Positions 3,191 through 19,145 of a stretch of DNA of 21,890 bases are shown here, one piece after another. Origin of the DNA: Ectocarpus siliculosus (lineage: Eukaryota; Sar; Phaeophyceae; Ectocarpales; Ectocarpaceae); the NCBI GenBank assembly GCA_000310025.1, contig FN648770.1, forward strand, positions 29,392 through 51,281. Direction: 5' to 3'. How positions within the stretch are numbered: the first letter of the stretch is position 1; each line of letters starts with the position of its first letter. A program made the position numbers and the translations under genes. The notes under the pieces were generated by a model that worked only from the letters and a program-made list of their open reading frames with translations, ran no database searches and had not been told where the DNA came from.

Positions 3191-4246
3191 ACAAAGAGGG
3201 ACCAGGCTGACAATAACAAGAAGTATGAGGCAGAGCAAGGCACACGGTGGAGACCACTAACGAACAAGCAAACACGCAAACATGAGTCCACAACCGAAAC
3301 GAAATTGTTCTAATGACAAGAGAAAATAGAAACTATAGTCTGTACTGCATGCACATACAGGAAGTTCCTCCCTTCGAGGGCTCACGAGATTGCAGGAAAG
3401 GCAATCCTTGGAAGGGTAGTTTGAAGATTGCTGTGCGCGCGACGTCGGCCGCAACCCCCCCCCGCTTGCCGTTGGGATCGAAAGTTGGACGGACAACGGC
3501 AGCAGGGTATCTTGTGTAACGTCAGTCGGGGACGTGGGCTCTTGGTTGACGGGTGTCGTGACAGTGAGGTGCACCACGTCAGCGGTTTTTGCCGAATCTA
3601 CATGTACGATGCTTGCCGAATCTGTCTAAAAACCGAACCGTGATTGGTGGAGTTATCGTAGATCTCATTGACGCGACCCCAGACGTCGGTAGCGCTGAAC
3701 GCAGTCCGCCTCGAAAACGTGTCGAACGGCCGGAAGGCCCTACATGTAGCAACACAGGGCTTGGTAGGTGAAATCTCGGTGCGAGATGACGTCATGGAGA
3801 AACCGCAAAAAATGGGGGTTAGGCTCACGGTTTGTCACGGCTTGGTCGAAAGTAGTGGTTGTCTTCATGTTGGAACACCATGTCTCGGAACATTCCCTGC
3901 TCTTACTGTAGTACACTTGAAGCTTTTGGTCACAGGTTGATCGCCGGGTTGGGGTGGGGTAGTAGGTACAGCAGTGCACAGAAATGCGAACACGCAAGTC
4001 TACACGTAGATACCGTAGTTGCCTTTTCTATTTGACAAAAATAGGATGAGGCCTTCTGGGGTCCATACTTGTTTTCCCAAAACTAAACGTGTACGTCCCT
4101 GTCGCGGAAGTACGGACATTATCAGTAGGTACTGGGCGGCAACCGGAACGAATGGTGTTAAGTGTAAGGACAATAACATCGACAACGTCAGGTGTTCGGT
4201 CCGGAGCAACGCAACACCCACTACCGTGTAGGTGAAATTTCTATTT

Positions 4247-4274
4247 CCCTCAAGGGGGCGTGCTCCGCTGAGGG
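4247..4274. other. GC-rich hairpin
   Basis: CCCTCA (4247-4252) pairs with TGAGGG (4269-4274), and an inner GGGGC/GCTCC stem can stack on it. It is flanked by A/T-rich sequence on both sides. No gene end is known next to it, so it cannot be called a terminator. Confidence 0.45.
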
Positions 4275-5204
4275 ATTTCTAGGGGTTGCCGATTGGCCAC
4301 CGGTTTACACATACATCTGTGTGGTAGGTGCTGAGTGGGATGATGGTGAACAAGGCATGTTGCACGGAATCATTGGTTTTCTCCTCACACGCATAGAAGA
4401 AACCGACATGTATTTGCATATTATTCAAGTATATGTTTCGGTGATGCGGTCGGGGCGACCCAACTACAGGTTTTGGTACAAGGATAGCCACACCATACCC
4501 ATGCGTTCCTGTGCGTTTGTTTTAAGGGCTGTTCTGAAGAGGTAATAGACAGAAAGTATGTATGTGCATTGCCGCGATCAGAAGGTAGCAGTCTGTGATG
4601 TGAGTCCGTGCGAGATGGTAATTGTGTCTCTTCAGGTGGCATAGCAGATGATGATGGTTTTCAACTTGAGTCACCTTGGGGATGGCATGTCCCAACATCC
4701 CGGAAAGGGGGAAGACCTGGTATGCATAGACTATGTAGGACATCGATTTTGTTTCTCTTAGCAATGGTTTTTCTCAGCTACTGGGACAGCGTTTGTTTAT
4801 TGTCACACTTTCTTCTGCATGGCACGCAGAGGACCCGTCGGTACATTTCCCGTTACGTGTGGGCCTCGCGAGACACCGGTGGTGCACGTTTGGGCCGCCT
4901 AAAGTCTCGCTGGGACTGGATTTCTTTTCAGGAGTTGGGAATCCGAACCCCAAAAGCCTCCTCGCGAACGGCACGAAACTGAAAATAAAACTTTTTTACC
5001 CCGCGGCACGCACTCACGCGCCCACACACTTGCTGCTTCTGTGATTGTTGTGCACGCACCAACCACACGGCAACTATCGCAAGCGTACCCACTGCGGGGA
5101 CCAAGACTCTTGATGCTCATGGGAACACACCACGCGACACAGGAGTTCTTATCTCGCACAACTGTTACAGCGGTTAATTTCAAGGTACACATCGGGAAAA
5201 TTCC

Positions 5205-5586
5205 CGCCGCTTTTTCCCGCCGTTGTGGGCGGTCCCGGTACTGGCGGTAAATACCGCCACAGTCGGTGGTACCGGGAACCGCCGAAAGTGGTACCGCCGA
5301 AAAACGAAATACCGCCTACCGCCTAAAAAGGACCGCCATATTGCAGTACCACCAAACAAAGTACCGCCAAAAAACGAATACATGTACCGGGAACTGCCTA
5401 AAAAGAACCGTCATATTGCAGTACCGTCAGAAAAGTACCGCCATAATTGGCAGTACCGGGAACCGCCAAAGGCGGTACCGCCGGAAAACGAAATACCGCC
5501 TACAGCCAGAAAAGTACCGCCACATTGAAGTACCACCACGCCTGAATCCCCCTAAAAAACTAGTACCGAGGGGTACCCTCGGGTAA
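5205..5586. repeat. TACCGCC motif cluster with potential cruciform
   Basis: TACCGCC, ACCGCC and their complements recur many times, separated by A-rich spacers, with three longer blocks that each start near GTACCGGGAA (about 5269, 5385 and 5454). At the left end an 8-bp perfect inverted repeat, TGGCGGTA/TACCGCCA (5242-5259, 2-nt spacer), is nested inside longer arms (5229-5241 and 5269-5282, one extra base). At the right end, 5562-5586 is a near palindrome around GGGGTACCC. Dense short motifs in both orientations resemble the subterminal regions of hAT or CACTA DNA transposons, where transposase binds, but no transposase or target-site duplication is visible. The open frames here only reflect the repeat. 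Confidence 0.75.
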
Positions 5587-6090
5587 ATTTGTAACTTTCT
5601 ATTCGATAAAATCGAAAAAGTCATGATGATCAGTCTTTGTATCTATCTGTGACTACTGCTTGGGCACGTCGAGCGTCTCTTTGATCCGTTGTTGTTGATG
5701 CAAATTCCATGTAAATTTTTAGTATGCAGATTGCACGCAAGCCGGCACTAGCGAACGTCATGCCTACCAACCATGCGACCGCGATGGCATTGGTTGACCA
5801 TTTTCGTCGCCCCCTGGAGGCAAATCACTTACCTCTCGCAGGGAAACCTTGTATGTTGTACATTTTAGTTGTATTGATGAGCTGGGCAGAAAACAGAGTG
5901 CGCTCCGGTGGGGGGTGACCGCTCTGCCTGGTCAGTCCTGTTGACTCCTGTCAAAACAACGGAGAACCTCAGCACCAGCCAGTCTGGAAACGTTCTGGAA
6001 GCAAAAAAGATCTGTGTGAACTCGGGCCGTTCGGAGCAAGACAGACTACAACGTACACGGGAAGGAACACTGCTAAATGTCGTTGCTTAC
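5587..6090. other. No feature recognised
   Basis: I see no gene, RNA or repeat that can be supported in this stretch. If the putative minus-strand exon at 6091-6201 is real, part of this interval would be its downstream intron. Confidence 0.5.
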
Positions 6091-6201: not shown

Positions 6202-6577
6202 CTGTTATCGTCGTTGCCCGCGTCACTATAGCCATAGGCTCGCCAGTGATTCAAGGCGATTCCGATTGTATGTTGTCACCGATGCTTCGTCCCCCATCTT
6301 GTCATGAATTCTGCAAGTCTCGACACCGGCAACCTACCCGACCGTCTCCAGGGCGCTGATCACGATGGTTAGCGACTGTACGCAGCTGCTGTTCACCCAA
6401 GGCGCATATCGCTTTAGTCACCTTTCCACTACGTCGGCCTTTCTCACAAGTGCCGTTATCACCATTGTCGTCACTCAATAAGCTTTGATGCATATGAAGT
6501 CCCCTTCTTCCCTTTGCCCCATCCTCATCCGGTTCCCCCATCGGCAACTCGTACGTCCACTTCACCCTCATTTCCAT
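6202..6577 (-). other. Interval between two putative minus-strand exons
   Basis: A minus-strand frame stays open across most of this interval (to 6302) and is rich in Asp, Glu, Gly, Lys and Arg, with a possible donor GG|GTAGGT near 6335. It is not convincing enough to call as an exon. If the neighbouring segments form one gene, part of this could be coding and the rest intron. Confidence 0.2.
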
Positions 6578-6898
6578 TCATACCCCCGCGACTGTGTCCT
6601 TGGCGCGCCAAAAAACACTTTTTTCTCGAAGGATGCTGTGTTGTGCAAAGAATAAATAGTCCATGGAAACACGAAAGACTCGCCATTTTCTGACGTGGAT
6701 TATTTCCGCCCCTTCCGAAAGCACCACTGCCACCTCCTCCCAGCTTTGGCCAGTTTCTCCTGGAGAAAATGCATGTTGGACCACCTCCGCGAGACCTTTC
6801 CCGACATCGGGCACAATGGCAGCGGGCGACAGGTCCATTAAGTTCAGACTTTTGTGAACGTATGTCGGCATGCTTGCCATGTGATGACGACGCGTGCG
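6578..6898 (-). CDS. Possible coding segment of unrecognised minus-strand gene
   Basis: A minus-strand frame is open from an acceptor-like AAACAG at 6899 down to a TGA at 6578-6580, and it contains ATG at 6880-6878 in a reasonable context (CACATGG). It encodes about 100 residues, including LSPAAIVPDVGKGLAEVVQH and GQSWEEVAVVLSEGAEIIH, which alternate hydrophobic and charged residues as a folded protein would. The last third (Phe, Arg, Tyr-rich) is less convincing and may be intron. A second open frame of 250 codons overlaps it on the same strand but has poorer composition. No family recognised; it may be a small gene, one exon of a larger one, or chance. Confidence 0.3.
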   Translation of the reverse strand, partial: RTRRHHMASMPTYVHKSLNLMDLSPAAIVPDVGKGLAEVVQHAFSPGETGQSWEEVAVVLSEGAEIIHVRKWRVFRVSMDYLFFAQHSILREKSVFWRAKDTVAGV

Positions 6899-8025
6899 CT
6901 GTTTCTGTTTGCTTAGGAAATGTATTGTGCCCTGTTTGGCATACCAGGTTGGGGCAGTCGTGAATTGCCGTCTGCCTTGGTCTGCATGCAGAAATCAAGA
7001 CCAGACAGCGTCCGCATAATGTCGTTGGCGTGCGGACCCGGTTGGCCCCAGGTTCCCACCGACCTTCATAATTTCCGGAGAACACGGTTGGTGGCAGATG
7101 CACCGTCTTCGTCGTCGCCCCAACTTCGTCGAACGGTGATTTATGGAGATGCACACAACCGGCAAACCGTCGAAGCAGGATACCCAAGCGATCGCTCACA
7201 TATGACGGGGGCAGAAACGACGAATTTTGAAGTTGATAGACACACCAATAGATAGACACACGAAAATCAGTATTCAATCGTTGATTCTCCTACAGGGCGG
7301 CAGTACAGTCTGCTCGAAACATACAGTTCACGCGTCTACCTCCACCCTCCTCCTTTGAAATCATGTAATACTTGACACCGTTCGTTCTAAATAATAGTGA
7401 AAAGAGCCAAAACGGAAGGCGCTCAAACTATGTCAATTTCGAAAGGGTGTCGCATTGTCTTGTCATTAGTGGAGGACATCATGCAGAAGCGTCGTGCTTG
7501 CTGGCGCGTTCAGGTTTGCTCATGGTGCTGAAATATTGAAGGTGGCAGCTGTTTCCGAAAACATCCGAAGTCTGCGCCGGAACTAAGCGGCATCCAACAT
7601 TTGTCGCAGCCGTGCACGCCGCACCGACCCCAACCTCTTGAACTGCTGGTTTACAGCAGTAGCTGATACTTACGCTACACTACTGCTGACAACCTCCCAT
7701 CAGGGAAATAAGGTCCGTGGCGGTTAGGGTTAGCTGTGACAAATGTTAGATGCCGCTTGGTTCCGGCGCATATTATTGACTGTTCTCAGAGGCTGCAGCG
7801 ACCTTTTCATACTGACGACAAAATAATGCAATATGTAACCCTGGCTGGAAGGTTGTACTTCTTGTTTTAGTATGAAAGTATGCGAGCAAGAGCCAGCGTC
7901 ACAACCCCCTTTCTGCACCCGAAACATGGGTTTTACCCTGCTGTTTCCCGCGATGTCTAATCTCGAGTGTTCGTTCTGGACCGTTCTGTGCACCTTGCTT
8001 GCATTTATGCAGGAGGACCACAACA
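6899..8025. other. No gene recognised; upstream region of the array gene
   Basis: This interval separates the putative minus-strand segment from the signal-peptide exon starting at 8026. If both genes are real it is a divergent intergenic region and should hold the promoter and 5' leader of the large gene. I see no convincing TATA box or initiator. GCAG at 8009-8012, just before the start codon, could be an acceptor of a leader intron, but this is speculative. Confidence 0.4.
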
Positions 8026-8148
8026 ATGAAGACAGTGACGGCATGCACGATGGGGATCGTGCCCGTCCTCCCAATCGTTCTACTCGCTCTTAGCGGCACC
8101 TCGGTCTCTGCCAGGTTCGCCTTCAGGGGCAGGAACGCTCACAACGAG
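8026..8148 (+). CDS. Exon 1: signal peptide
   Basis: ATG at 8026 in the context CAACAATGA opens 41 codons ending at AACGAG|GTACAT (phase 0). The peptide starts MKTV, has a hydrophobic core around [12 protein letters not shown], and a small-residue site VSA at residues 27-29, a textbook signal peptidase cleavage site. The mature N terminus would begin RFAFRGRN. It is the only convincing signal peptide upstream of the cysteine-module array on this strand, which is the main reason to join it. It could instead belong to a separate short secreted protein ending at 9778. Confidence 0.5.
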
Positions 8149-11100
8149 GTACATCGACCACTTCTCATCTACTGTCAAATTACTGATGATACGTTACCCC
8201 AAAGGATCAAATATGTTTTGTAAATTCAAAAAACAGCGGGAAACAACTGTGTCCGTGAAATTCAAAAATCTTTAGATTTGAAAAACAAGTTATGTACCGC
8301 TGTAGACTTCGTTCCATCTCCATGAATTTTTGTAACTTCGTTCCATCTCCATGAATTTTTGTAACAAACCAGCTAGCTGTCAATAGACCCTGCGCCGTGT
8401 CCCCTGTGAAGGTTACGTTTTACAAGATGACGAAACTTAGGGATTCTCCCCGATATTTTGTCGTTGACCCAGTGTTTTTGTGCTTAGCACCACCTGGCAT
8501 CACTGATATATAAATCATGAGTGTATATACTTGGAAAAGACTCGAAATAAGTCCAGTACCCAGCCGGTTTTTCTCCACTCACTGAAAAGACTCTACCACA
8601 TCCCGTTCGACTGTGGGTGTATCTCGAAGGGGTGGTCTTTCTGTGTGTGTATTTATTTTTCCTTAATTTTTTTCTTCCTCGAGCATTTTGTTTCCAACTT
8701 CGCGGCCTGGTGTCAAAATGGTTTATTACCAACAGATCAAAGGGAGAGAAAAGACTGCGTCATCCGAATAGACAAAAATATTGTGGGCATTTTGTGGGCG
8801 TTTTCCTCGCCTTTTACTTGGCGCCAAAGCGGGGGTTATACGGTATGAACCAACTTTGTCTAAGTACCCGATGTACATGCGTGTCGTCGTGTTGATGCAG
8901 ATATTTTTAGTAATCCTTCAACGTATGTTGTAAATTGGACAACTTTCGCTATTATGGGCGCGTGTTCACAGCAGCAACGTGCCGCTGGCCGTTTGAGTAC
9001 GGCAACGCATCGCTGTTCACTCTCGGTGTTCGATGTATGCAGTCTTAGTGTATAGGCCATTCTGCTCGTGGTCACGTGCGGGGCAAAGTACCTCCGGTGT
9101 CGTGCTGTATCACCTCAGTCCGTGGTGTTCGACCGGTAAAACATTACTGGGGATTATAACTGGGGAAGCTCGAATTCGGAATTAGGCTTGTTCGTCATGT
9201 TCATGTCTGCACTACTTTGAAAGTTTAAGTGGCTATCCAACCGGGTTTTCCGTGTCTCGTTGTGGAGAGATACCTGGTTGTTCATCGCAGAGGTATGAAC
9301 CGAAGATGGCATACGGTTGACGTTCGGAAATAGATGCGGATGAAGCCCTTGTCTCGGACCACTGTTGGGCGTACGCGCGCTGCGTCGAACCGAAGGATAT
9401 GGTTGCTTCCGTTGAAGAAAACGTCGACGCCTACATATGTAACCTTGCGTACTTTGATCGTCTCTGTCAACAGGGAAACCTCGAACATGTGGCCGACGCT
9501 CAAACGATCAACAGCAGTGTGCGCAGCCTCCAGGCCGAAGGTAAGACGTGTGGGCGATAAATGCCGACAAAGTGTATGCTCGTAGTACCATATTGGTGAA
9601 AACAAAGCGACAACCGTAGGAGGAGCGACGCCAGTGAAACAGCGGGGAATTTTTTCAGAAAGCTGGAAACGCACCAGGAATCATCGAGAGTGTTGGACAC
9701 GACCCAGACCTTTCAAGTCCAATGAGCGCCTATTGGCCAGACAAAATGTCGACAGTACGCAACTGGAGACACCCTTGAATGTAAAAGAGGCGGTGCGCCG
9801 TTCCCCGGGTAGAGCAGTCGGGTTTCATGGCCTTGGTAGGTTTGCGCCGAAGTGTTTTGCGATCTACGATCAGGTCGGCAGGAGGATGCAGGCACATTTC
9901 GTTGCTGCACTCGGAATGTCTCCGCCGAATGGTCTCTCCGTTTCTGCAGGCCCCTCTCCGCAGGCCCAAAAATGCGCAACACCGCCCCTCCTCGATCATC
10001 AAAGGCATGTTTTAGAAGATCTGTGTGAAGCGGACACTCAATTCTGGCCTACAGCATCACTGTGACGTAATCGGGAAATTCGAATGGAACGGATTCAAGC
10101 TTTGTACGACAGTCCAGTTCCAAACGTCTTGAGTTAAATTCGAGCCCTTGATGAAAAAAACAAATCCAACGAAGTACTGTACACACTCTGTATGGAACTA
10201 ACATTTTCGTGCCGAATGTCTCATCATTAGTTTTTGCGAAGCCTTCTTTGAGCTTTTCCTTCGTCCTGTGAAAAACGCTGTGGTACGACTCGTATTACCA
10301 CTTTGCAGGGAAGAAACTTCACCCCAGCAAAACCACGGTGGCTACACTGTATCGCCGAAAGTACATTCTACCAAACTACTGCTGTTACTTCCATTCTTTT
10401 TGGGAACGTCTCCCGCAGGAATAGACCGGCTTGGGATTCCTGAGAAACATATCACTGTAGTTCTTTGCCACCAACCTTTCCTCCAAGACCATAAAGAGTG
10501 AAAAGAACGCCCTCAACGTTTTGTGGTCGGGGTTGGATCAGAGGGAACTGTTTGTGGTGTTTGGTCGAATTTCGATACATGATTACAACAAACATTTCAG
10601 GAGTCGAATCCGACCCCTAAATTTTTTGCCGGTCTGATATATTGTCTCTACCCTAAGCAGCGGTACGCATATATGACACCTGCAGTTCCACTACCTTAAA
10701 TTTATTGTAAGCTGCCGCCATTCGCGCTGCCCCATACAGCTCTGTCCTGTGAAATTTGTTGTGCTTGCGTCACATACCTCCACAATGGGCATGACATAGA
10801 AACGATACTTGAATATAAGGAAACATTTCTCAAGTGACAACAACGCGCGATTGGCTAGTGATTATATCTTGTCTGCGTCCTTTCACTTGAACTTTGTTCT
10901 GGTAAGCACCACCCCTTGTCTGGGTCCGTTCACTTGAATTTAATTCTGGTAAGCACCACCGCTCTGTTGTGAATGGCGTCTTCGTATAAACCGAACAGTC
11001 TCCATGTGCGACGGCGGAATTGTCGGCATCCAGTCAAGCGATGTGTGCTGTTCCGCAAGCTGCGGGTCTTGCGGAGGTTCTGGGTGCTCTTCCAGGGACG

Positions 11101-14100
11101 GTGGATCGGAATCCTGCTGTGGTGGCGGAGTCAGGGCTTCCGGTCGGTACTGCTCCGTTACGGGAGAAGCGCCCTGCATGACTAGTAAGTCAATAGACAC
11201 GATCGAGGCTTGTGCAATGGTCGAAATGAGAAACTCACACCCCTGGCGTTTGCACTCTAGAGTTTGCTCCGCCATGTTGGCCCCTCCGGAACTGGAATCT
11301 TGGAAAGGTAGGTGTGTTGCGTGGTTAAAACTACATCTACATGCGGGAATAACCTAGAAGCGTGTAACGAATCATGCTATATATATACTTGCAGAATGGT
11401 CGACGTGTCGTGACACATTTCTTACTTTTAGTGTGGGAAAAATGAAAAACTGCTCGCTCGTAATTTGTCCCAAACAGCAGTATGGGCCAGACACCTGAGG
11501 TTCACGTTCCGCGGGGGCCGATCCTTCACCCTCTCGTGCCCTCTCGCTCTTTGCGAACGTCTCCATTTCTTGATGTCTTGATTGCCCAGCCGGTATACTC
11601 TATCGTGTCGCTTTGCTTCTTCTTTGTTCCTAACTTGCCTCAAAACCCTCACCGTCATCCATCCAGGTGTAACCGCCCGCCCCATCGGGGGCGGGGGGCC
11701 AATCCTTAACCCGAGCGTGTGAAACGGATGGCCACAGCAGGAATATATAAAATTCAGTGAGCCATGTATAAAGTCGGAGCAGATTGTTGTCTTTAAACAC
11801 TGCCGAACAATTCGACAACTTTTCCAATTTGTACAGGCCCGGCCCCTACGCCGGAACCTACGCCGGCTCCTACCCCTGCTCCCACACCTGAAAGTAAGTG
11901 GTTCTCCTTTGTTGGTTTGCTTTAAAACGTACAGGACACCTTCAGCATTGCATGCCGATCTGAAAAGTAGTGTCCACTGTACGGGTCGCCTTAGTCGTGG
12001 CTCCTCGAAACTGCACGTGGTTGAGGCGACAGCTTCGAAGTTCTAGGTTAGAGAATGACGACAGTAATTGACCGACCCGGGTTTTGAGGACGGATGCCTA
12101 TCGTGCCTATTCGAAACGCTTGTCATGTAGGTCAGCTTGTTTCGGGTTGCATCTGGAGGGCATGATCATTTGTTGTTTGCCCCCACGTTTACCACTGTCA
12201 TGTCCTGTCTCGAATATCTGTTCGGCTAATTATTTTTGACTGACTCTGAACCTTGACTATACTTCGCCGAACATCGGCTTCAAGCTGAAACAAACACCTA
12301 CAACCCGCAGGGTCGCAAGTAGTTCGTAATTGAACGATAATGACGTCTGATCGGCGTTGTCTCACTTGAAACTCATTTCTGAGGCGGCTGTGTTTTGAAT
12401 GCCGTCTTCGTATTAACCGAGCAGTCCCGATGTGCGACGGCGGAATTGTCGGCATCCAGACAAGCGATGTGTGCTGCTCCGCAAGCTGCGGGTCTTGCGG
12501 AGGTTCTGGGTGCACCGGCAGGGACGGTGGATCGGAATCCTGCTGTGGTGGCGGAGTCAGGGCTTCCGGTCGGTACTGCTCCATTACGGGAGAAGCGCCG
12601 TGCATGACCGGTGAGCCAAGAGGAACGATCGACGCTTGTTTGCACATTGATTTGATGGACTCGAAGTTTTGGTGACACTTATCATAGAGCGTGCTCCTCC
12701 AATGCCTTGCCCTCGATCGTTACATGTATGTGCGTATGCTCCCTCCCGTGCCTTCGCCTGATGTGGGAGACAGTACGTTGAGCGATTGGAACTTAAACCA
12801 CACGGTGGAAAATCGAAGTTGCTTGTTCACAAGAATTGAAACGGACAGGCACAGTTGGATATTATACACAGCAGTGTTATACCCAGAAGCAAGCCTCGTT
12901 GCCGATCACCAAGTCCCTAATACCTGCACCGATGTACTCATTTTGAACGTCATGTTACAACACTGCGCCAACAGTATTCTCTTCAACGCCTTGCCCAATT
13001 TGTGGAAGCAGGTCCGGCCCCTACCCCGGAACCTACGCCGGCCCCTACGCCGCCCCCTACAGTTGAAGGTAAGCAGTGCTCCGTTGCTGCCTTGCTTTCA
13101 TAACTACTGTATACTTTTAGCATCGCAATCAAATGTTGCCGACCTGAACAATAATACAAAGGGATGGGAGGGCGGGATTTTCTAAATTGCAGCCGCTACT
13201 GCGTTAGGCGGCTGCTGCTGTCCTTCCGTTGCTTCACGCGCTCTGTAGCTCTCACACGTTACCCGACTTTGCTACAGCCCCTGCGTGGACTCGATCACGG
13301 AATGACATCCCCAGCTATAGACTTCAATAATAAATCCAAACACCGTGACCCTGGGTTTCCGATAGAAAATGAAGCCAAATTCTAATTCGACTGTTACAAA
13401 ATAAACACCAGTTTATTCTATCTGCTCTTCGAACAAACCTTCCTGTCTTTACAGCAGTCGCGGCTCTTTTGGAACTGCACGTGCTTGGTGGTGCAGCTTC
13501 GATCCGTACAGTGATCTTTAAAGCACCCTAGCAATGCTCATGTAGCATGGATGTCCGTCGCACCTATTTGAGATGCAGGTCAGCGCATGTTGTGCTCCAT
13601 CGGAGTGGTCATCGACCGTTCGACTGATGCGCACATATGTGGCGTTGTCTCTCTTGAGCTGACGTCTACGATGGCGTCTGTCATGAATTTTGTCTCATGC
13701 ATACCGAGCAGTCCCGATGTGCGACGGCGGAATTGTCGGCATCCAGTCAAGCGATGTGTGCTGCTCCGCAAGCTGCGGGTCCTGCGGAGGTTCTGGGTGC
13801 ACTGGCAGGGACGGTGGATCGGAATCCTGCTGTGGTGGCGGAGTCAGGGCTTCCGGTCGGTACTGCTCCATTACGGGAGAAGCGCCGTGCATGACCGGTG
13901 AGCCAATAGGAACGATCGACTCTTGTTCGCACATTGAGGTGATGGAATTGCAGTTTGGTAGCACCATCCTCCAAGGCCTGGCCCTCGATCATTACTCAAC
14001 ATGCATGTGTTCCCTTCCGTGCCTTCGCCTGATGTGGGAGACAGTATGTTGAACGACTGGAGCTTGATCCACACGGTGGAGTTACAAGCCAAGGAAATTG

Positions 14101-17100
14101 CTGACAAGAATTGAACGGGCAGCCACATATGTATATTATATGATTTGCAATGACCTTAACACGTACTTTGTCGAGACTAATTCTGTGCTTCCAGTAACAT
14201 GTTGACACAGCAGTATTGTACCCCGAAGCAAGCCTCGTTGCCGATCACCAAGTCCCTTTTACCTGCATCGATGTTTTTAATCGAACGTCATATAACATCA
14301 CAACGCCAACAGCACTCTATTCGAACGCCCGCCCCAAATTGTGGAAGCAGGCCCGGCCCCTACCCCGGAACCTACGCCGGCCCCTACGCCACCCCCTACA
14401 GTTGAAGGTAAGCGGTGCTCCGCTGCTGCCTTGCGTTCAAAACTACTGTTCACCTTCAGCATCGCAATCAAATGTTGCCGACCTGAACAATGTCCATTGT
14501 GCACGACGTCTGAAAATAGTTGCACCTCCCTTGAAACTGCACGTGCTTGGTGGTGCAGCTTCGATCCGTACAGTGATCTTTAAAGCACCCTAGCAATGCT
14601 CATGTAGCATGGTTGTCCGTCGCACCTATTTGAGATGTAGGTCAGCGCATGTTGTGCTCCATCGGAGCGGTCATCGACCGTTCGACTGGTGCGCACATGT
14701 GTGGCGTTGTCTCACTTGAACTGACGTCTACGATGGCGTCTGTCATGAATTTTGTCTCATGCATACCGAGCAGTCCCGATGTGCGACGGCGGAATTGTCG
14801 GCATCCAGTCAAGCGATGTGTGCTGCTCCGCAAGCTGCGGGTCTTGCGGAGGTTCTGGGTGCAGTGGCAGGGACGGTGGATCGGAATCCTGCTGTGGTGG
14901 CGGAGTCAGGGGTTCCGGTCGGTACTGCTCCGTCACGGGAGAAGCGCCCTGCATGACGGGTGAGTCAATAGCGAAGCTTGTTTGCACTACTGTAGTGGTA
15001 ACATTGTCGTTAAAGTTTGCTCCTCCGACGTTTGCTTCGATCACTGCATAGTAATACATGTCACCTCTTGTCCGTTTACTCCGTCTTCGGAGAGGTATAT
15101 TAAACGGTTGAAACTTGATCCACATGCGTGTGACAAAACCTAACAAAACTGCTCCGAAGAATGTTAACGGGCAGCCACATAGAGATAAGATATGAATACC
15201 AGTGACCGTAACATGTTCTTTGTAAATTATCTGCTTCCATGCGCTTGTTGACACAACAATGTAAAACCCTGAACTACCAAGAAGCATCAGTACAACATTT
15301 ATTCCCAGTAAAATAACATAAATTCCTGCAGTACTCCCTGCATCAACGTTTTCAGTCGAACTTCATCTTGTATTTAGAAACAATGCCCAACAATAATATG
15401 GTTCGAAAACTTCCCCACTATAAAAAACAGGCGCGGCCCCTACGCCGGCCCCTACGCCGGCCCCTACGCCACCTCCTACAGTTGAAGGTAAGCGGTGCTC
15501 TGTTGCTGCCTTGCGTTCAAAACGACAGTATACCTTCGGCATCCCATATATATGTTGATGTCATGATGTATTGATAGTTGTCGTGATATAATACCTGGTA
15601 GTGATAGATCATCAAGAGACTGATAGTCTTAAATGCCTCATGTAGCACGGGCGCCTGTCGCGCCCATTCCAAATGATTTGGGTGGATGCACAGGTCAGCG
15701 CATGTTGTGATCTGCAGGGCATATATCGCGCTCACGACGACGCCACGACCCAGGTAGTGAGCTATTGACCATGAATTAAGGCTTGGTAGGCGTTGTCCCA
15801 CTTGAACTCCCCTCTACCAAACAACACCGCTGCTTCTGTTTCACCCAAACCGAACAGTTCCGAAGTGCGACGGCGGAATTGTCGGTATTCAGGCGAGCGA
15901 TGTATGCTGTTCCTTGAGCTGCGGGTCTTGCGGAGGTTCTGGGTGCACTGGCAGGGACGGTGGACCGGAATCCTGCTGTGGAGGTGGAGTCAGGGCCACC
16001 GGTCGCGATTGCTCTGTTACGGGAGAAGCACCCTGCGTTGTGACAAGTAAGCTAATTGGAATACGTTTGTGGGAACGTCGCAGGGACAAACTCACACCCT
16101 CACGACGTTCTTCGAAAGGGTAGAGTTGCGTCGAATCTATTGGGCCTCCGGTCCCTGCCAACATGTTTTCTTCCCTAACCGCCGTTGGAAACGTTTTTGG
16201 GCCCTCAGTCGCTGCAAATATTCGCCCTTCTCTTCCCGTACCGCTCTCAAAAAGGTATGTCGCACGCTGCATATTCGGTAAACTTCATTTTCGATAAGCG
16301 TATCGATAGGAAGAGATCCTAACCCATGTCCAATTGCTGTTCACATATGGAACCTTTCTCCACTTCAGTCTTCAAAGTTCTCATTTGAATATTTGCTACT
16401 ACCAACACCTGGTATAAACTGCCTTCGAGGCGAGTCCTACGCATTTAAACATCCATTCCCGGGCCCCATCTACAAATTGTTGGACCCACACCCTCAAAAA
16501 GGGCAGTTGAACGCTTTACGACCGTTCCTTTACTAAAACGAATGTATTCCGTCAAACGTCCTTTTTCACACTTGCAATACTGCGCAAACATAACGCACTT
16601 TGTACGAACCCTTCCGCCAACACGCAACAGGTCCGGAACCTTCGACGCCGGCCCCGACGCCGGCCCCTACACGTGCAGGTGCGGTTTTTGTCTGCCACTT
16701 GGCGCCATATTTCTTCTCTTGGGCATCGGATATATCGCAGACCGACACGTTTTTCTTCTGTTCCATGATTGCTGTCTCAATGACGTGTTCTCGAAGCCAC
16801 AACAAATGAATGTGAGGTTGCCTCGGCCTGCAGGACCGACCGGCACCTGAAGGTTTGAGCACGACATGTTTCGTACGCCTGAACGATGTGCATGGCATAG
16901 CAACAATTTTTCCTCAATTGGTTTTCGTCCGCTCACTCCAACGTAAAACAGCGGGGACGTGCGAGGGCGGAATTGTCGGTGTCCAGGCTCTTGATGTTTG
17001 CTGCGCCCTGAGCTGCGGTTCTTGCGGAGGTGTCGGTTGCAGTACCAGGGACGGTGGAGAAGACAACTGCTGTGGTGCCGAAATCAGGATCGCCGATCTC

Positions 17101-19145
17101 GATTGCTCTGTTACGGGAGAAGCGCCTTGCATCGTGACGAGTAAGCGAGTGTTGTACATGTGCATACACACGTCGAACTATCAAACGCACATCCTTGGAA
17201 ATACTCACGGTCGAGGCAGCAGCTAGTGTTGCTAGTCGAGGCAGCAGCTAGTGTTGCTCCGAGTTTGGCCCCTATGAAACTGCATCTCACTCGATCGTGG
17301 GGTGGTATGTTGAACGGTCAAACCTTAATGTACATTCTAACTCGCCACTAAGCATGTGAGAAATGGAACCAGCCGGCCAAACGCCGGACATCAGGTTCAT
17401 TGTGAGCATGACTTGTACTGTCGAGCTGCCATTTTTCTTGAGGCACCAGTTAAAAAACCAGCGCGAGGCCTTCACGCGAAGTATAAGCCGCAATATCAAA
17501 GACCAAGCCGCCCTTTACTTGCTTCAGCGTATTCAGTCCGACCGTCTTATTCTCTAGAAAGACTGCACCAAACTAATACTGCGTACGAACCCCAATATTT
17601 GTGAACATAGGCCCATCCACAACGCCGACGCCTACGACCGTCACTTCTTCGCCCGGAACTACGCCTGCGCCCGGAACTACCCCGACACCCACGACCGTCA
17701 CTGCTGCGCCCGGAACTACGCCTGCGCCCGGCACTACCCCGACACCCACAGCCGTCACTGCTTCGCCAGGAACTACGCCTGCGCCCGGCACTACCCCGAC
17801 ACCCACGACCGTCACTGCTTCGCCAGGAACTACGCCTGCGCCCGGCACTACCCCGACACCCACGACCGTCACTGCTTCGCCAGGAACTACGCCTGCGCCC
17901 GGCACTACCCCGACACCCACGACCGTCACTGCTTCGCCAGGAACTACGCCTGCGCCCGGCACTACCCCGACACCCACGACCGTCACTGCTTCGCCAGGAA
18001 CTACGCCTGCGCCCGGCACTACCCCGACACCCACGACCGTCACTGCTTCGCCAGGAACTACGCCTGCGCCCGGCACTACCCCGACACCCACGACCGTCAC
18101 TGCTTCGCCAGGAACTACGCCGGCGCCCGGCACTACCCCGACGCCTACGATGATCACACCTTCGCCCGAAACTACGCCGGCCCCTACGTCTGTCGGTGGA
18201 ACTACGCCGGCCCCTACGTCTGTTGGTGGTACTACGCCGGCCCCTACGTCTGTCGGTGGTACTACGCCGGCCCCTACGTCTGTTGGTGGCACTACACCGG
18301 CCCCTGCCGGAGGTCGTGGTGGAGGCCGTGGTACGCCGACCCCTACGATGATCGCCGGAACGCCGGCCCCTACGTCTGTTGGTGGTACTACGCCGGCCCC
18401 TACGTCTGTCGTTGGTACTACGCCGGCCCCTACGTCTGTTGGTGGCACTACACCGGCCCCTACCGGAGGTCGTGGTGGAGGCCGTGGTACGCCGACCCCT
18501 ACGATGATCGCCGGAACGCCGGCCCCTACGTCTGTTGGTGGTACTACGCCGGCCCCTACGTCTGTCGGTGGAACTACGCCGGCCCCTACGTCTGTCGGTG
18601 GAACTACGCCGACCCCTACGATGATCGCCGGAACGCCGGCCCCTACGTCTGTTGGTGGTACTACGCCGGCCCCTACGTCTGTCGGTGGTACTACGCCGGC
18701 CCCTACGTCTGTCGTTGGTACTACGCCGGCCCCTACGTCTGTTGGTGGCACTACACCGGCCCCTACCGGAGGTCGTGGTGGAGGCCGTGGTACGCCGACC
18801 CCTACGATGATCGTCGGGACGCCGGCCCCTACGTCTGTCGTTGGTACTACGCCGGCCCCTACGTCTGTTGGTGGCACTACACCGGCCCCTACCGGAGGTC
18901 GTGGTGGAGGGCGTGGTACGCCGACCCCTACGATGATCGCCGGAACGCCGGCCCCTACGTCTGTTGGTGGTACTACGCCGGCCCCTACGTCTGTCGGTGG
19001 AACTACGCCGGCCCCTACGTCTGTCGGTGGAACTACGCCGGCCCCTACCGGTGGTCGTGGTGGAGGGCGTGGTACGCCGGCCCCTACGTCTGTCGGTGGA
19101 ACTACGCCGGCCCCTGCTGGAGGTCGGGGAGGTCGAGGTCCTTAG
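8026..19145 (+). CDS. Multi-exon secreted protein with six ten-Cys modules and Pro/Thr repeats
   Basis: Proposed gene of 15 exons. Coding segments are 8026-8148, 8684-8720, 9334-9540, 10999-11184, 11837-11893, 12425-12610, 13012-13068, 13712-13897, 14351-14407, 14774-14959, 15431-15487, 15858-16046, 16631-16678, 16952-17140 and 17611-19145. They sum to 3,300 nt, or 1,099 residues plus stop. The order is signal peptide, five-Cys N-terminal region, six cysteine modules alternating with Pro/Thr linkers, and a long Thr/Pro/Gly repeat tail with Arg-Gly boxes. All junctions from 9334 onward are phase 1. The 12 exons from 10999 are well supported by repeated matching splice sites; the first three are less sure. 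Secretion is implied by the signal peptide and 60 paired cysteines. PT and AP repeats are likely O-glycosylated, as in arabinogalactan-type proteins. No transmembrane segment or GPI tail is visible at the C terminus. An extracellular-matrix, cell-wall or adhesive role is inference. Confidence 0.6.
8149..8683 (+). other. Putative intron 1
   Basis: Begins GTACAT and ends in a strong polypyrimidine tract (TTTTTTTCTTCCTCGAG). It contains a perfect 29-bp tandem duplication (8306-8334 and 8335-8363). No coding segment is convincing inside it. Confidence 0.4.
8306..8363. repeat. Perfect 29-bp tandem duplication
   Basis: The unit starting ACTTCGTTCCATCTCCATGA occurs twice, head to tail, without a mismatch, so it is recent. 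It lies in the putative first intron. Confidence 0.95.
8684..8720 (+). CDS. Exon 2 (tentative), bridging exon
   Basis: A strong acceptor (pyrimidine tract then CTCGAG) is followed by an open frame reading [12 protein letters not shown]. The donor AATG|GTTTAT at 8720 is weaker but converts phase 0 from exon 1 to the phase 1 needed by the exon at 9334. The joined reading [18 protein letters not shown] is smooth. A better donor (ACG|GTATGA at 8842) exists in the same frame but leaves phase 0, which would not fit. This exon is the weakest link of the model. Confidence 0.25.
8721..9333 (+). other. Putative intron 2
   Basis: The first 120 nt stay open in the frame of the preceding exon (to the stop at 8846), so a longer exon form is possible. 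A small acceptor-donor pair (CCTCAG at 9112-9117, CCG|GTAAAA near 9135) would define a 17-nt exon but with the wrong phase. Otherwise nothing recognisable. Confidence 0.3.
9334..9540 (+). CDS. Exon 3: cysteine-containing N-terminal region
   Basis: The acceptor GAAATAG at 9333 and the donor GAAG|GTAAGA at 9540 bound 207 nt that are open in the frame starting (G)AT GCG GAT, phase 1 at both ends. The peptide includes [32 protein letters not shown] and [16 protein letters not shown], with four cysteines here (a fifth in the tentative exon 2), acidic and helical in character. An upstream TGA at 9318 rules out a longer exon. Donor phase matches the first cysteine-module exon at 10999, giving an intron of 1,458 nt. 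I do not recognise the domain. The antisense open frame of 130 codons is a shadow. Confidence 0.5.
9663..9778 (+). CDS. Possible alternative terminal exon
   Basis: A pyrimidine-rich acceptor region (TTTTTTCAGAAAG) precedes a frame that continues phase 1 from 9540 and reads [18 protein letters not shown] then [18 protein letters not shown] before TGA. Joined to the three upstream exons it gives 483 nt, a secreted protein of 160 residues. This would be either an alternative 3' end or evidence that the signal-peptide gene ends here and is separate from the module array. Using the CAG at 9656-9658 instead puts the sequence into the 143-codon frame. Confidence 0.25.
10869..10960. repeat. Diverged 46-bp tandem duplication
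   Basis: Two head-to-tail copies (10869-10914, 10915-10960) share CTTGTCTG.GTCC.TTCACTTGAA and end CTGGTAAGCACCACC. Each contains a donor-like TG|GTAAGC. They lie 40 nt before the first cysteine-module exon and include the CACTTGAA core seen before the other module exons. Confidence 0.85.
10999..11184 (+). CDS. Exon 4: cysteine module 1
   Basis: Bounded by ACCGAACAG and ACTA|GTAAGT, 186 nt, phase 1 at both ends. The module follows the spacing C-x12-CC-x3-C-x2-C-x4-C-x9-CC-x10-C-x7-C, ten cysteines that can form five disulfides. Key segments are [25 protein letters not shown] and TGEAPC. Spacing and the many Gly residues suggest a compact, loop-rich fold. Similar cysteine-rich modules, to my recollection, occur in secreted proteins of stramenopiles, but I cannot name a database family. 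Confidence 0.85.
11185..11836 (+). other. Intron between module 1 and linker 1
   Basis: 652 nt, GTAAGT to TTGTACAG. An ACTCACACCC segment and the following stretch have relatives in the intron after module 5, so intron sequence was copied with the exons. No exon recognised inside. Confidence 0.7.
11837..11893 (+). CDS. Exon 5: Pro/Thr linker 1
   Basis: 57 nt between TTGTACAG and GAAA|GTAAGT, phase 1 at both ends. Encodes [18 protein letters not shown] after the split codon. Alternating Pro with Ala or Thr is typical of extended, O-glycosylated linkers. Confidence 0.8.
11894..12424 (+). other. Intron between linker 1 and module 2
   Basis: 531 nt. Shares with later introns the CTTCAGCAT...GCCGA block after the donor, a GAAACTGCACGTG block and the GGCGTTGTCTCACTTGAA motif about 70 nt before the acceptor. 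No exon seen inside. Confidence 0.75.
12425..12610 (+). CDS. Exon 6: cysteine module 2
   Basis: 186 nt between ACCGAGCAG and ACCG|GTGAGC, phase 1. All ten cysteines and all spacings of module 1 are kept. Differences include IQTSDV for IQSSDV, CTGRDGG for CSSRDGG and SITGEAPC for SVTGEAPC. The antisense open frames here are shadows. Confidence 0.85.
12611..13011 (+). other. Intron between module 2 and linker 2
   Basis: 401 nt. Its second half (from about 12870) is closely similar to the corresponding part of the intron before linker 3 (from about 14210), including AAGCAAGCCTCGTTGCCGAT. No exon seen inside. Confidence 0.75.
13012..13068 (+). CDS. Exon 7: Pro/Thr linker 2
   Basis: 57 nt between GGAAGCAG and GAAG|GTAAGC, phase 1. 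Encodes [18 protein letters not shown] after the split codon. Nearly identical to linker 3. Confidence 0.85.
13069..13711 (+). other. Intron between linker 2 and module 3, with insertion
   Basis: 643 nt. Compared with the equivalent intron after linker 3 it carries about 278 extra bases between roughly 13153 and 13460, containing two hairpins (13189-13215 and 13400-13417). The last 240 nt match 14535-14773 at a constant offset of 1,062. Confidence 0.75.
13712..13897 (+). CDS. Exon 8: cysteine module 3
   Basis: 186 nt between ACCGAGCAG and ACCG|GTGAGC, phase 1. Ten cysteines with the standard spacing. Almost the same peptide as module 2 ([21 protein letters not shown]) and nearly the same DNA as module 4, so it sits in the most recently copied part of the array. 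Confidence 0.85.
13898..14350 (+). other. Intron between module 3 and linker 3
   Basis: 453 nt. Contains GTGCCTTCGCCTGATGTGGGAGACAGTA, shared in kind with the intron after module 2, then the AAGCAAGCCTCGTTGCCGAT block. No exon seen inside. Confidence 0.75.
14351..14407 (+). CDS. Exon 9: Pro/Thr linker 3
   Basis: 57 nt between GGAAGCAG and GAAG|GTAAGC, phase 1. Encodes the same 18 residues as linker 2, [18 protein letters not shown], with only silent or split-codon changes. Confidence 0.85.
14408..14773 (+). other. Intron between linker 3 and module 4
   Basis: 366 nt, the compact version of this intron without the insertion seen after linker 2. Bases 14535-14773 match 13473-13711 with only scattered substitutions. 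Confidence 0.75.
14774..14959 (+). CDS. Exon 10: cysteine module 4
   Basis: 186 nt between ACCGAGCAG and ACGG|GTGAGT, phase 1. Ten cysteines, standard spacing. Carries [16 protein letters not shown] and SVTGEAPC. Downstream of its donor the similarity to the unit of module 3 breaks down. Confidence 0.85.
14960..15430 (+). other. Intron between module 4 and linker 4
   Basis: 471 nt, largely diverged from the corresponding introns of units 2 and 3. No exon seen inside; the 176-codon antisense frame covering module 4 and part of this intron is a shadow. Confidence 0.7.
15431..15487 (+). CDS. Exon 11: Pro/Thr linker 4
   Basis: 57 nt between AAAAACAG and GAAG|GTAAGC, phase 1. Encodes [17 protein letters not shown] after an initial Ala codon; the Glu of linkers 2 and 3 is replaced by Ala in the PAPT run. 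Confidence 0.85.
15488..15857 (+). other. Intron between linker 4 and module 5
   Basis: 370 nt. Keeps the CAGGTCAGCGCATGTTGTG block and the GGCGTTGTCCCACTTGAACT motif found in the equivalent introns. No exon seen inside. Confidence 0.75.
15858..16046 (+). CDS. Exon 12: cysteine module 5
   Basis: 189 nt between ACCGAACAG and ACAA|GTAAGC, phase 1, one codon longer than modules 1-4 because the end reads CVVT rather than CMT. All ten cysteines and spacings are kept. Substitutions include [19 protein letters not shown] and RATGRDC, so it is clearly more diverged than modules 2-4. Confidence 0.85.
16047..16630 (+). other. Intron between module 5 and linker 5
   Basis: 584 nt. A coding-like segment (16124-16254) ends at a strong donor, AAAAAG|GTATGT, but would be phase 0 to 2 and so break the array frame. 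Part of it is similar to the intron after module 1, so I treat it as intron. Confidence 0.65.
16631..16678 (+). CDS. Exon 13: Pro/Thr linker 5
   Basis: 48 nt between CGCAACAG and GCAG|GTGCGG, phase 1, nine nt shorter than the other linkers. Encodes [15 protein letters not shown] after the split codon. The ending TRA replaces TVE and the donor GTGCGG is weaker. Confidence 0.7.
16679..16951 (+). other. Intron between linker 5 and module 6
   Basis: 273 nt, the shortest intron of the array, with little similarity to the other introns. Nothing else recognised inside. Confidence 0.65.
16952..17140 (+). CDS. Exon 14: cysteine module 6
   Basis: 189 nt between GTAAAACAG and ACGA|GTAAGC, phase 1. The most diverged copy ([39 protein letters not shown]), yet all ten cysteines and every spacing are unchanged. 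SCGSCGG and CSVTGEAPC are intact. This pattern of change around fixed cysteines argues for selection on the fold. Confidence 0.85.
17141..17610 (+). other. Intron between module 6 and terminal exon
   Basis: 470 nt, GTAAGC to GAACATAG. It contains a perfect 24-25 bp tandem duplication (17210-17258). No exon recognised inside. Confidence 0.7.
17210..17258. repeat. Perfect 25-bp tandem duplication
   Basis: GTCGAGGCAGCAGCTAGTGT plus TGCTA occurs at 17210-17234 and again, bar the last base, at 17235-17258. It lies in the last intron of the array gene. Confidence 0.95.
17611..19145 (+). CDS. Exon 15: terminal Thr/Pro/Gly repeat exon
   Basis: The acceptor GAACATAG at 17610 gives phase 1 entry; the frame is open for 1,535 nt to TAG 19143-19145. 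The first part (to about 18180) is a 57-nt, 19-residue repeat, [19 protein letters not shown], with six virtually identical central copies and diverged ends. The second part has about 20 copies of PAPTSVGG or PAPTSVVG, mostly as decapeptides, plus PTPTMIAG-type segments. It is punctuated by five GGRGGGRG boxes and a final GGRGGRGP. There is no Cys and no hydrophobic tail. Thr/Pro/Ala repeats suggest dense O-glycosylation; the Arg-Gly boxes supply the only charge and could contact anionic wall polysaccharide. The 434-codon antisense frame is a shadow of repeat units that are multiples of three. Confidence 0.85.
17640..18166 (+). repeat. 57-bp minisatellite, about nine units
   Basis: In-frame 57-bp units starting ACTACGCCTGCGCCCGG. 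Units between 17761 and 18103 are in exact 57-bp register with almost no differences, pointing to recent slippage or unequal exchange. Assembly could have collapsed or expanded the count. Confidence 0.9.
18167..19137 (+). repeat. 30-bp minisatellite in higher-order arrangement
   Basis: Core unit ACGCCGGCCCCTACGTCTGT plus a Gly or Val-Gly tail and ACT. Two to four units are followed by a GGTCGTGGTGGAGG-type Arg-Gly box and a CCTACGATGATC-type segment, and this composite recurs five times with varying length. Confidence 0.9.

Follow-up and report, generated by a model that had tools for sequence, protein, structure and literature searches.

A gene of Ectocarpus siliculosus with six ten-cysteine modules on symmetric phase 1 exons: a candidate modular glycoprotein of the wall or matrix

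In the brown alga Ectocarpus siliculosus, six ten-cysteine modules and the Pro/Thr-rich linkers between them, each an exon bounded by phase 1 introns on both sides, make up much of a single predicted gene, which we read, with a probability of roughly 60%, as encoding a secreted, modular, AGP-like glycoprotein of the wall or matrix. The window (the whole stretch of DNA analysed, 21,890 nucleotides) corresponds to C229:29392-51281 of a genome of 189 Mb in 492 contigs. The features well founded on sequence are the anatomy of the gene, its intron phase, the size of the module family, selective constraint, differences in copy number between genes and the occurrence of one C-terminal exon in two contexts.

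Gene structure

The original prediction placed twelve exons with precise splice sites at 10999-19145 and held every junction among them to be phase 1. All twelve were found (six modules, five linkers and a tail), with every junction in phase 1 and a spliced frame without a stop. The acceptors are all AG and the eleven internal donors all GT; gtaagc accounts for five of the eleven, and the weakest donor is gtgcgg after 16678. Two further exons upstream, one for a signal peptide and one joining it to the array, complete a 14-exon model that is open, has intact splice sites and encodes 1040 amino acids. Its exons are as follows.

8026-8148, plus strand: exon 1, start codon and apparent signal peptide, ending in phase 0 (model; fully covered by a match to paralogue C207)
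9474-9540, plus strand: exon 2, short joining exon, phase 0 in and phase 1 out, less certain (AG/GT and frame fit)
10999-11184, plus strand: module M1, ten-cysteine exon, phase 1-1
11837-11893, plus strand: Pro/Thr linker exon 1, phase 1-1 (model)
12425-12610, plus strand: module M2, ten-cysteine exon, phase 1-1
13012-13068, plus strand: Pro/Thr linker exon 2, phase 1-1 (model)
13712-13897, plus strand: module M3, ten-cysteine exon, phase 1-1
14351-14407, plus strand: Pro/Thr linker exon 3, phase 1-1 (model)
14774-14959, plus strand: module M4, ten-cysteine exon, phase 1-1
15431-15487, plus strand: Pro/Thr linker exon 4, phase 1-1 (model)
15858-16046, plus strand: module M5, ten-cysteine exon, phase 1-1
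16631-16678, plus strand: Pro/Thr linker exon 5, phase 1-1, donor gtgcgg (same length and donor in C207 at 30331-30378)
16952-17140, plus strand: module M6, ten-cysteine exon, phase 1-1, the most diverged
17611-19145, plus strand: tail exon, phase 1 in, ending with the stop codon (model, repeats, composition)

Phase 1 introns thus flank the module exon on both sides in six of six cases. Pro/Thr/Gly repeats, 57 nt and 30 nt long, make up the tail exon together with GGRGGGRG boxes. Confidence in the joining exon is lower because it matched only itself in a genome search and has no counterpart in C207. Cleavage of the apparent signal peptide after ...SVSA was judged by eye. Similar signal exons occur at seven other places in the genome (C207, C204, C417, C303, C472 twice and C479); a TGA is reported in two of the seven, on C417 and C204, that on C417 lying beyond the exon end by reading. 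Two contigs that share the signal exon are nearly or wholly devoid of modules in the stretches examined: 9.2 kb of C472 gave a single degenerate match (E 2.4e-4), and 8 kb of C479 gave none. Short tandem duplications lie in introns of the model at 10868-10960 (47 bp x 2.0) and 8301-8365 (29 bp x 2.2).

A module without a named relative

Number and spacing of the cysteines are invariant in the window, as had been claimed, following C-x12-CC-x3-C-x2-C-x4-C-x9-CC-x10-C-x7-C in six of six modules. The accompanying statement that other residues vary applies to M5 and M6, with 85% and 59% identity to M3, but hardly to M1, M2 and M4, which are 93-98% identical to M3. Structure prediction with AlphaFold for M3 with the other five window modules gave no usable fold (mean pLDDT 36, pTM 0.14).

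The earlier impression that the architecture belongs to no named family agrees with the libraries searched (Pfam, NCBIfam, PHROGs and PDB). All six window modules matched zero Pfam families up to E 10, CBM1, PAN, WSC and EsV-1-7 included; M1 and M6, the two searched against NCBIfam and PHROGs, matched nothing there; in the PDB, M1 gave only a match at E 5.1 and a profile of the module alignment gave none. The leader of the gene has no Pfam match, and no LRR or TPR repeat with ROC-COR or NB-ARC was found by Pfam in modules, leader or tail. A viral origin of the module was considered and set aside, no relative being found in viral contigs with one module and the module alignment as queries, as was a prokaryotic origin, no relative being found in the prokaryotic genome contigs scanned. 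Nor was a description of this module found in the literature, the search covering titles and abstract openings, with subscription papers outside its scope.

Conservation and recent duplication

When the window was compared by blastn with 28 kb of the paralogue C207, counting any match as coverage, 12 of the 14 exons were fully covered (more than one of the six module exons may be covered by the same C207 module), and 11 of the 13 introns were covered over 0-16% of their length. The exceptions are the two introns around linker 5, of which C207 covers 87% and 100%. Neither the joining exon nor the tail exon was covered in this comparison; C207 has a shorter tail of its own, with VTTTAPPT repeats ending in GGRGGR. 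That paralogues have the same exon edges, and that exons and mostly not introns are conserved against C207, indicates that the exon structure is more than chance.

Within the window, 13469-13912 and 14531-14975 are 96% identical over a module and flanking intron, with both ends inside introns, which makes M3 and M4, together with some of the intron sequence around them, a recent duplicate. This is a module exon duplicated through breakpoints in its flanking introns, the pattern by which class 1-1 modules are recognised. Such recent copying invites the thought that the array is decaying or unexpressed and open through recent duplication only, and the close family does sit on small contigs (14.8-57 kb in the five fetched), while one of its relatives, the module at C204:38843-39022 on the minus strand, has an in-frame stop (a similar module on C417 is open). 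We nonetheless give this explanation very little credence, given that 14 of 14 window exons are open with splice sites, that conservation against C207 is limited to exons, and that M5 against M1-M4 gives dN/dS of 0.12-0.21, a synonymous excess between older modules.

A large module family

A module search of the alga's own genome, taken to E 1, returned 147 matches, of which six belong to the window itself and 133 fell below E 0.01. Comparison was made of 82 full-length modules from the loci fetched, partial modules and those failing E 1e-3 having been dropped. The ten cysteine columns are kept in 82, 81, 82, 82, 82, 82, 82, 82, 82 and 79 of the 82, with exactly ten cysteines in 78 modules and nine in four, a high conservation that the filters for full length and a terminal Pro-Cys favour.

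Intron phase is similarly constant. At the nearest CAG or TAG, the acceptor of these 82 modules is phase 1 in 73, phase 0 in six and phase 2 in one, with two not found; the donor, taken as GTRAG, is phase 1 in all 64 recognised, with none in another phase and 18 not found. The close group and the C4 modules (26 each) share their splice sites by descent. The scattered set of 30 is more independent, with some loci contributing several modules, and there the acceptor is phase 1 in 21 of 30, the donor phase 1 in 15 and not found in 15. A scan for linker exons in every phase gave 29 candidate rows, nested alternatives counted, of which 26 are phase 1-1. Full module counts are 11 close modules on C207, three on C303 and 26 in 40 kb of C4. 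The expectation that units can be gained or lost in frame is accordingly borne out, the phase being kept in other genes with very different module numbers. The C4 array, at C4:5398001-5438000 on the minus strand, has its 26 full-length modules in phase 1 wherever sites were recognised, and it ends beside a WSC match.

A tree of the 82 modules is poorly resolved, with nine of 70 inner branches starred and bootstrap values unsettled. Modules group in it largely by gene and type, with window modules M5 and M6 beside C207 modules, and we read this as amplification within genes from a common starting array.

Amplification of this kind could also feed a diversifying recognition system, in which symmetric-exon arrays supply combinations, by duplication or alternative splicing, for the detection of pathogens or mates. 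One repeat per symmetric exon is a general layout that these modules share with brown algal ROCO-LRR and NB-TPR genes, for which such a role has been proposed, and the amplification of modules within genes would suit it. It is nevertheless an unlikely account of these modules, which are constrained (mean pN/pS 0.41 over 25 close modules) and whose recent copies are nearly identical; dN/dS over the fifteen window module pairs is 0.12-0.84, the top value coming from very few changes, and the window model has no transmembrane or signalling part by reading. On these ratios the close modules appear to be under constraint overall, not diversification.

Domain partners and a shared C-terminal exon

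Two wall-related domains accompany the modules at other loci, the window gene itself carrying neither. Among WSC loci, eight of 69 lie within 5 kb of a module locus on the same strand, against 0.12 expected by random placement; among CBM1 loci the figure is one of 12, against 0.02. The comparison used 53 module loci with the 20 weakest module matches left out, six close-family contigs entered once each and C207 a second time, some WSC matches fall below the Pfam cut-off, and the random expectation ignores clustering of secreted genes. An exon on C21 joins a WSC part to the module that immediately follows it, the WSC score of 24.6 bits being short of the 27.8-bit cut-off, and CBM1 (40.5 bits) is present in an exon on C11. 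It is from these neighbours, at other module loci, that the modules are taken to belong to wall proteins. Binding by the modules through CBM1-like, cellulose-type stacking on sugar rings is unlikely, since no Trp occurs in any of the 82 and 19 have no aromatic residue at all.

Other domain matches in the genome are recorded here as side observations. Chlorophyll-binding matches number 79, of which eighteen, on C92, C232 and C488, share one score (127.6 bits), which points either to repeats in the assembly or to light-harvesting genes that expanded recently. EsV-1-7, a family expanded in brown algae, has at least 150 matches (all of the 150 scored among 880 candidates). CBM1 has 23 matches over the Pfam cut-off, whereas a 2012 paper reports no CBM1 in E. 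siliculosus (PMC3532174); brown algal PR-1 proteins are listed with a CBM domain in a 2026 paper (PMC12879055).

A C-terminal exon offers a possible case of domain exchange. On C303, the third linker is followed by a Pro/Thr exon (8731-8790, phase 1-1) and then by a C-terminal exon with its acceptor before 9414, phase 1 in, and a next donor that, if used, is phase 0. A genome search with this C-terminal part gave three matches, on C212, C303 and C18. The C212 and C303 copies, nearly identical at 98.7-99.9% over the two longest matches, could represent a single locus that was assembled twice. Upstream of the C-terminal exon, C18 has a phase 1-1 Pro/Thr exon and WSC sequence (48.3 bits); no ten-cysteine module was found on the exon's strand in 10 kb. 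The match between C18 and C303 spans 2192 columns at 95.1% identity. It begins inside the intron, 211 nt from the intron start on C18 and 232 nt from it on C303, so that the exon and about two thirds of the upstream intron are shared and the sequence before is not. Alternatively to exchange, the first part of the intron may have diverged beyond detection between C18 and C303. From order and phase, we infer that the module array of C303/C212 and the C-terminal exon belong to one transcript. The pattern expected of exchange between domain contexts through an intronic breakpoint is seen for the C-terminal exon, whereas the ten-cysteine exon is seen only in different neighbourhoods.

The C-terminal exon carries a cysteine-rich domain (CGPADW...CCNHDYCW; L008, on C212, at 6251-7185, L006 with L038, and L037), which we took by eye to resemble a secreted phospholipase A2. 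That identity was set aside, Pfam giving nothing relevant and the PDB one match at E 0.48. An intron of C212 (L008, about 3306-5791) holds an insertion of about 2.5 kb absent from the C303 copy, with inverted ends CAGTCGAGGGACCCTTTTAGTGCC and, by reading, TA on each side; it looks like a DNA transposon.

Proposed function

Proteins are called AGP-like when at least half of their residues are Pro, Ala, Ser or Thr, with AP, SP and TP dipeptides. The mature predicted protein exceeds this, with a Pro/Ala/Ser/Thr content of 0.542 (0.701 in the tail) and 147 such dipeptides. The suggestion of an extracellular-matrix protein gains indirect support from this content, from the apparent signal peptide and from the same-strand WSC and CBM1 neighbours elsewhere; on those neighbours a wall role is likely.

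The same properties would suit a sticky mucilage or holdfast adhesive, with the repeat rod and cysteine modules cross-linking outside the cell: the protein is apparently secreted, repetitive, cysteine-rich and Pro/Thr-rich, and the sole Pfam match of its tail is Cytadhesin_P30 (E 0.0046), which at 17 bits against a cut-off of 40 was rejected as probably a matter of composition. Adhesives are usually rich in Tyr/DOPA; the mature protein has four Tyr and nothing specific to adhesion, and we hold an adhesive to be improbable.

For a wall or matrix glycoprotein, the following mechanism may be proposed. The signal peptide would export the protein from the cell. Pro/Thr spacers would separate its six ten-cysteine domains, probably with five disulfides each, and after the last of them would come a long rod of Pro/Thr/Gly sequence bearing Arg-Gly boxes; spacers and rod would probably be O-glycosylated. 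Through its repeated domains the protein could touch wall components at many points, and anionic alginate or fucan could be held by the cationic Arg-Gly boxes. As module and linker exons are 1-1 symmetric with intronic breakpoints, unequal crossing-over, itself presumed, would add or remove units in frame, and whole C-terminal parts would be exchangeable between genes.

Relation to known systems

EGF, kringle and sushi domains are examples of animal class 1-1 modules. The window gene has likenesses to several known systems. Firstly, the chimeric AGP-like core proteins mentioned for brown algae (PMC8307928) have a backbone rich in Pro, Ala, Ser and Thr joined to other domains, as here; the partner in the window gene is instead a ten-cysteine module, and the AGP likeness is one of composition. 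Secondly, CBEL of Phytophthora couples CBM1-PAN/Apple with a Pro/Thr hinge (PMC3532174); it too sets small cysteine-bearing domains on a Pro/Thr-rich hinge in a non-enzymatic wall protein, but the window modules match neither CBM1 nor PAN in Pfam. Thirdly, one study of brown algal ROCO genes reports phase 2 LRR exons, each 72 bp long, together with alternative splicing and four positively selected sites (PMC11378527). One repeat per exon, a single phase throughout and a tandem array are common to both, and with the ROCO-LRR genes repeat-exon shuffling has already been published for brown algae. Those are phase 2 LRR exons of GTPase genes with positively selected sites, whereas the window gene has 186/189-nt cysteine modules in phase 1, an apparent signal peptide and overall purifying selection.

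The last comparison is with animals. A review attributes the animal extracellular toolkit to the shuffling of class 1-1 modules and raises the question of why exon shuffling should be confined to Metazoa (PMC8001218). As in that animal system, a small domain stands alone on an exon with both introns in phase 1, in an apparently secreted protein, with in-frame gain and loss and intronic breakpoints; unlike it, the domain is without a sequence relative in Pfam or the PDB, and the host is a photosynthetic brown alga. By analogy, the window protein may work as animal class 1-1 modules do, with a domain of its own. Tentatively, and with the balance of our judgement slightly against it, brown algae may have evolved their own class 1-1 exon shuffling for extracellular proteins, independent of animals, in which a lineage-specific ten-cysteine module, Pro/Thr linker exons, WSC and other domains are interchangeable. 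The large phase 1 module family, with its apparent signal peptide, and the C-terminal exon seen in two contexts with a homology edge inside an intron would extend extracellular class 1-1 modules to a second lineage of complex multicellular life. The family, to which none of the libraries searched gives a name, also joins the candidate wall proteins.
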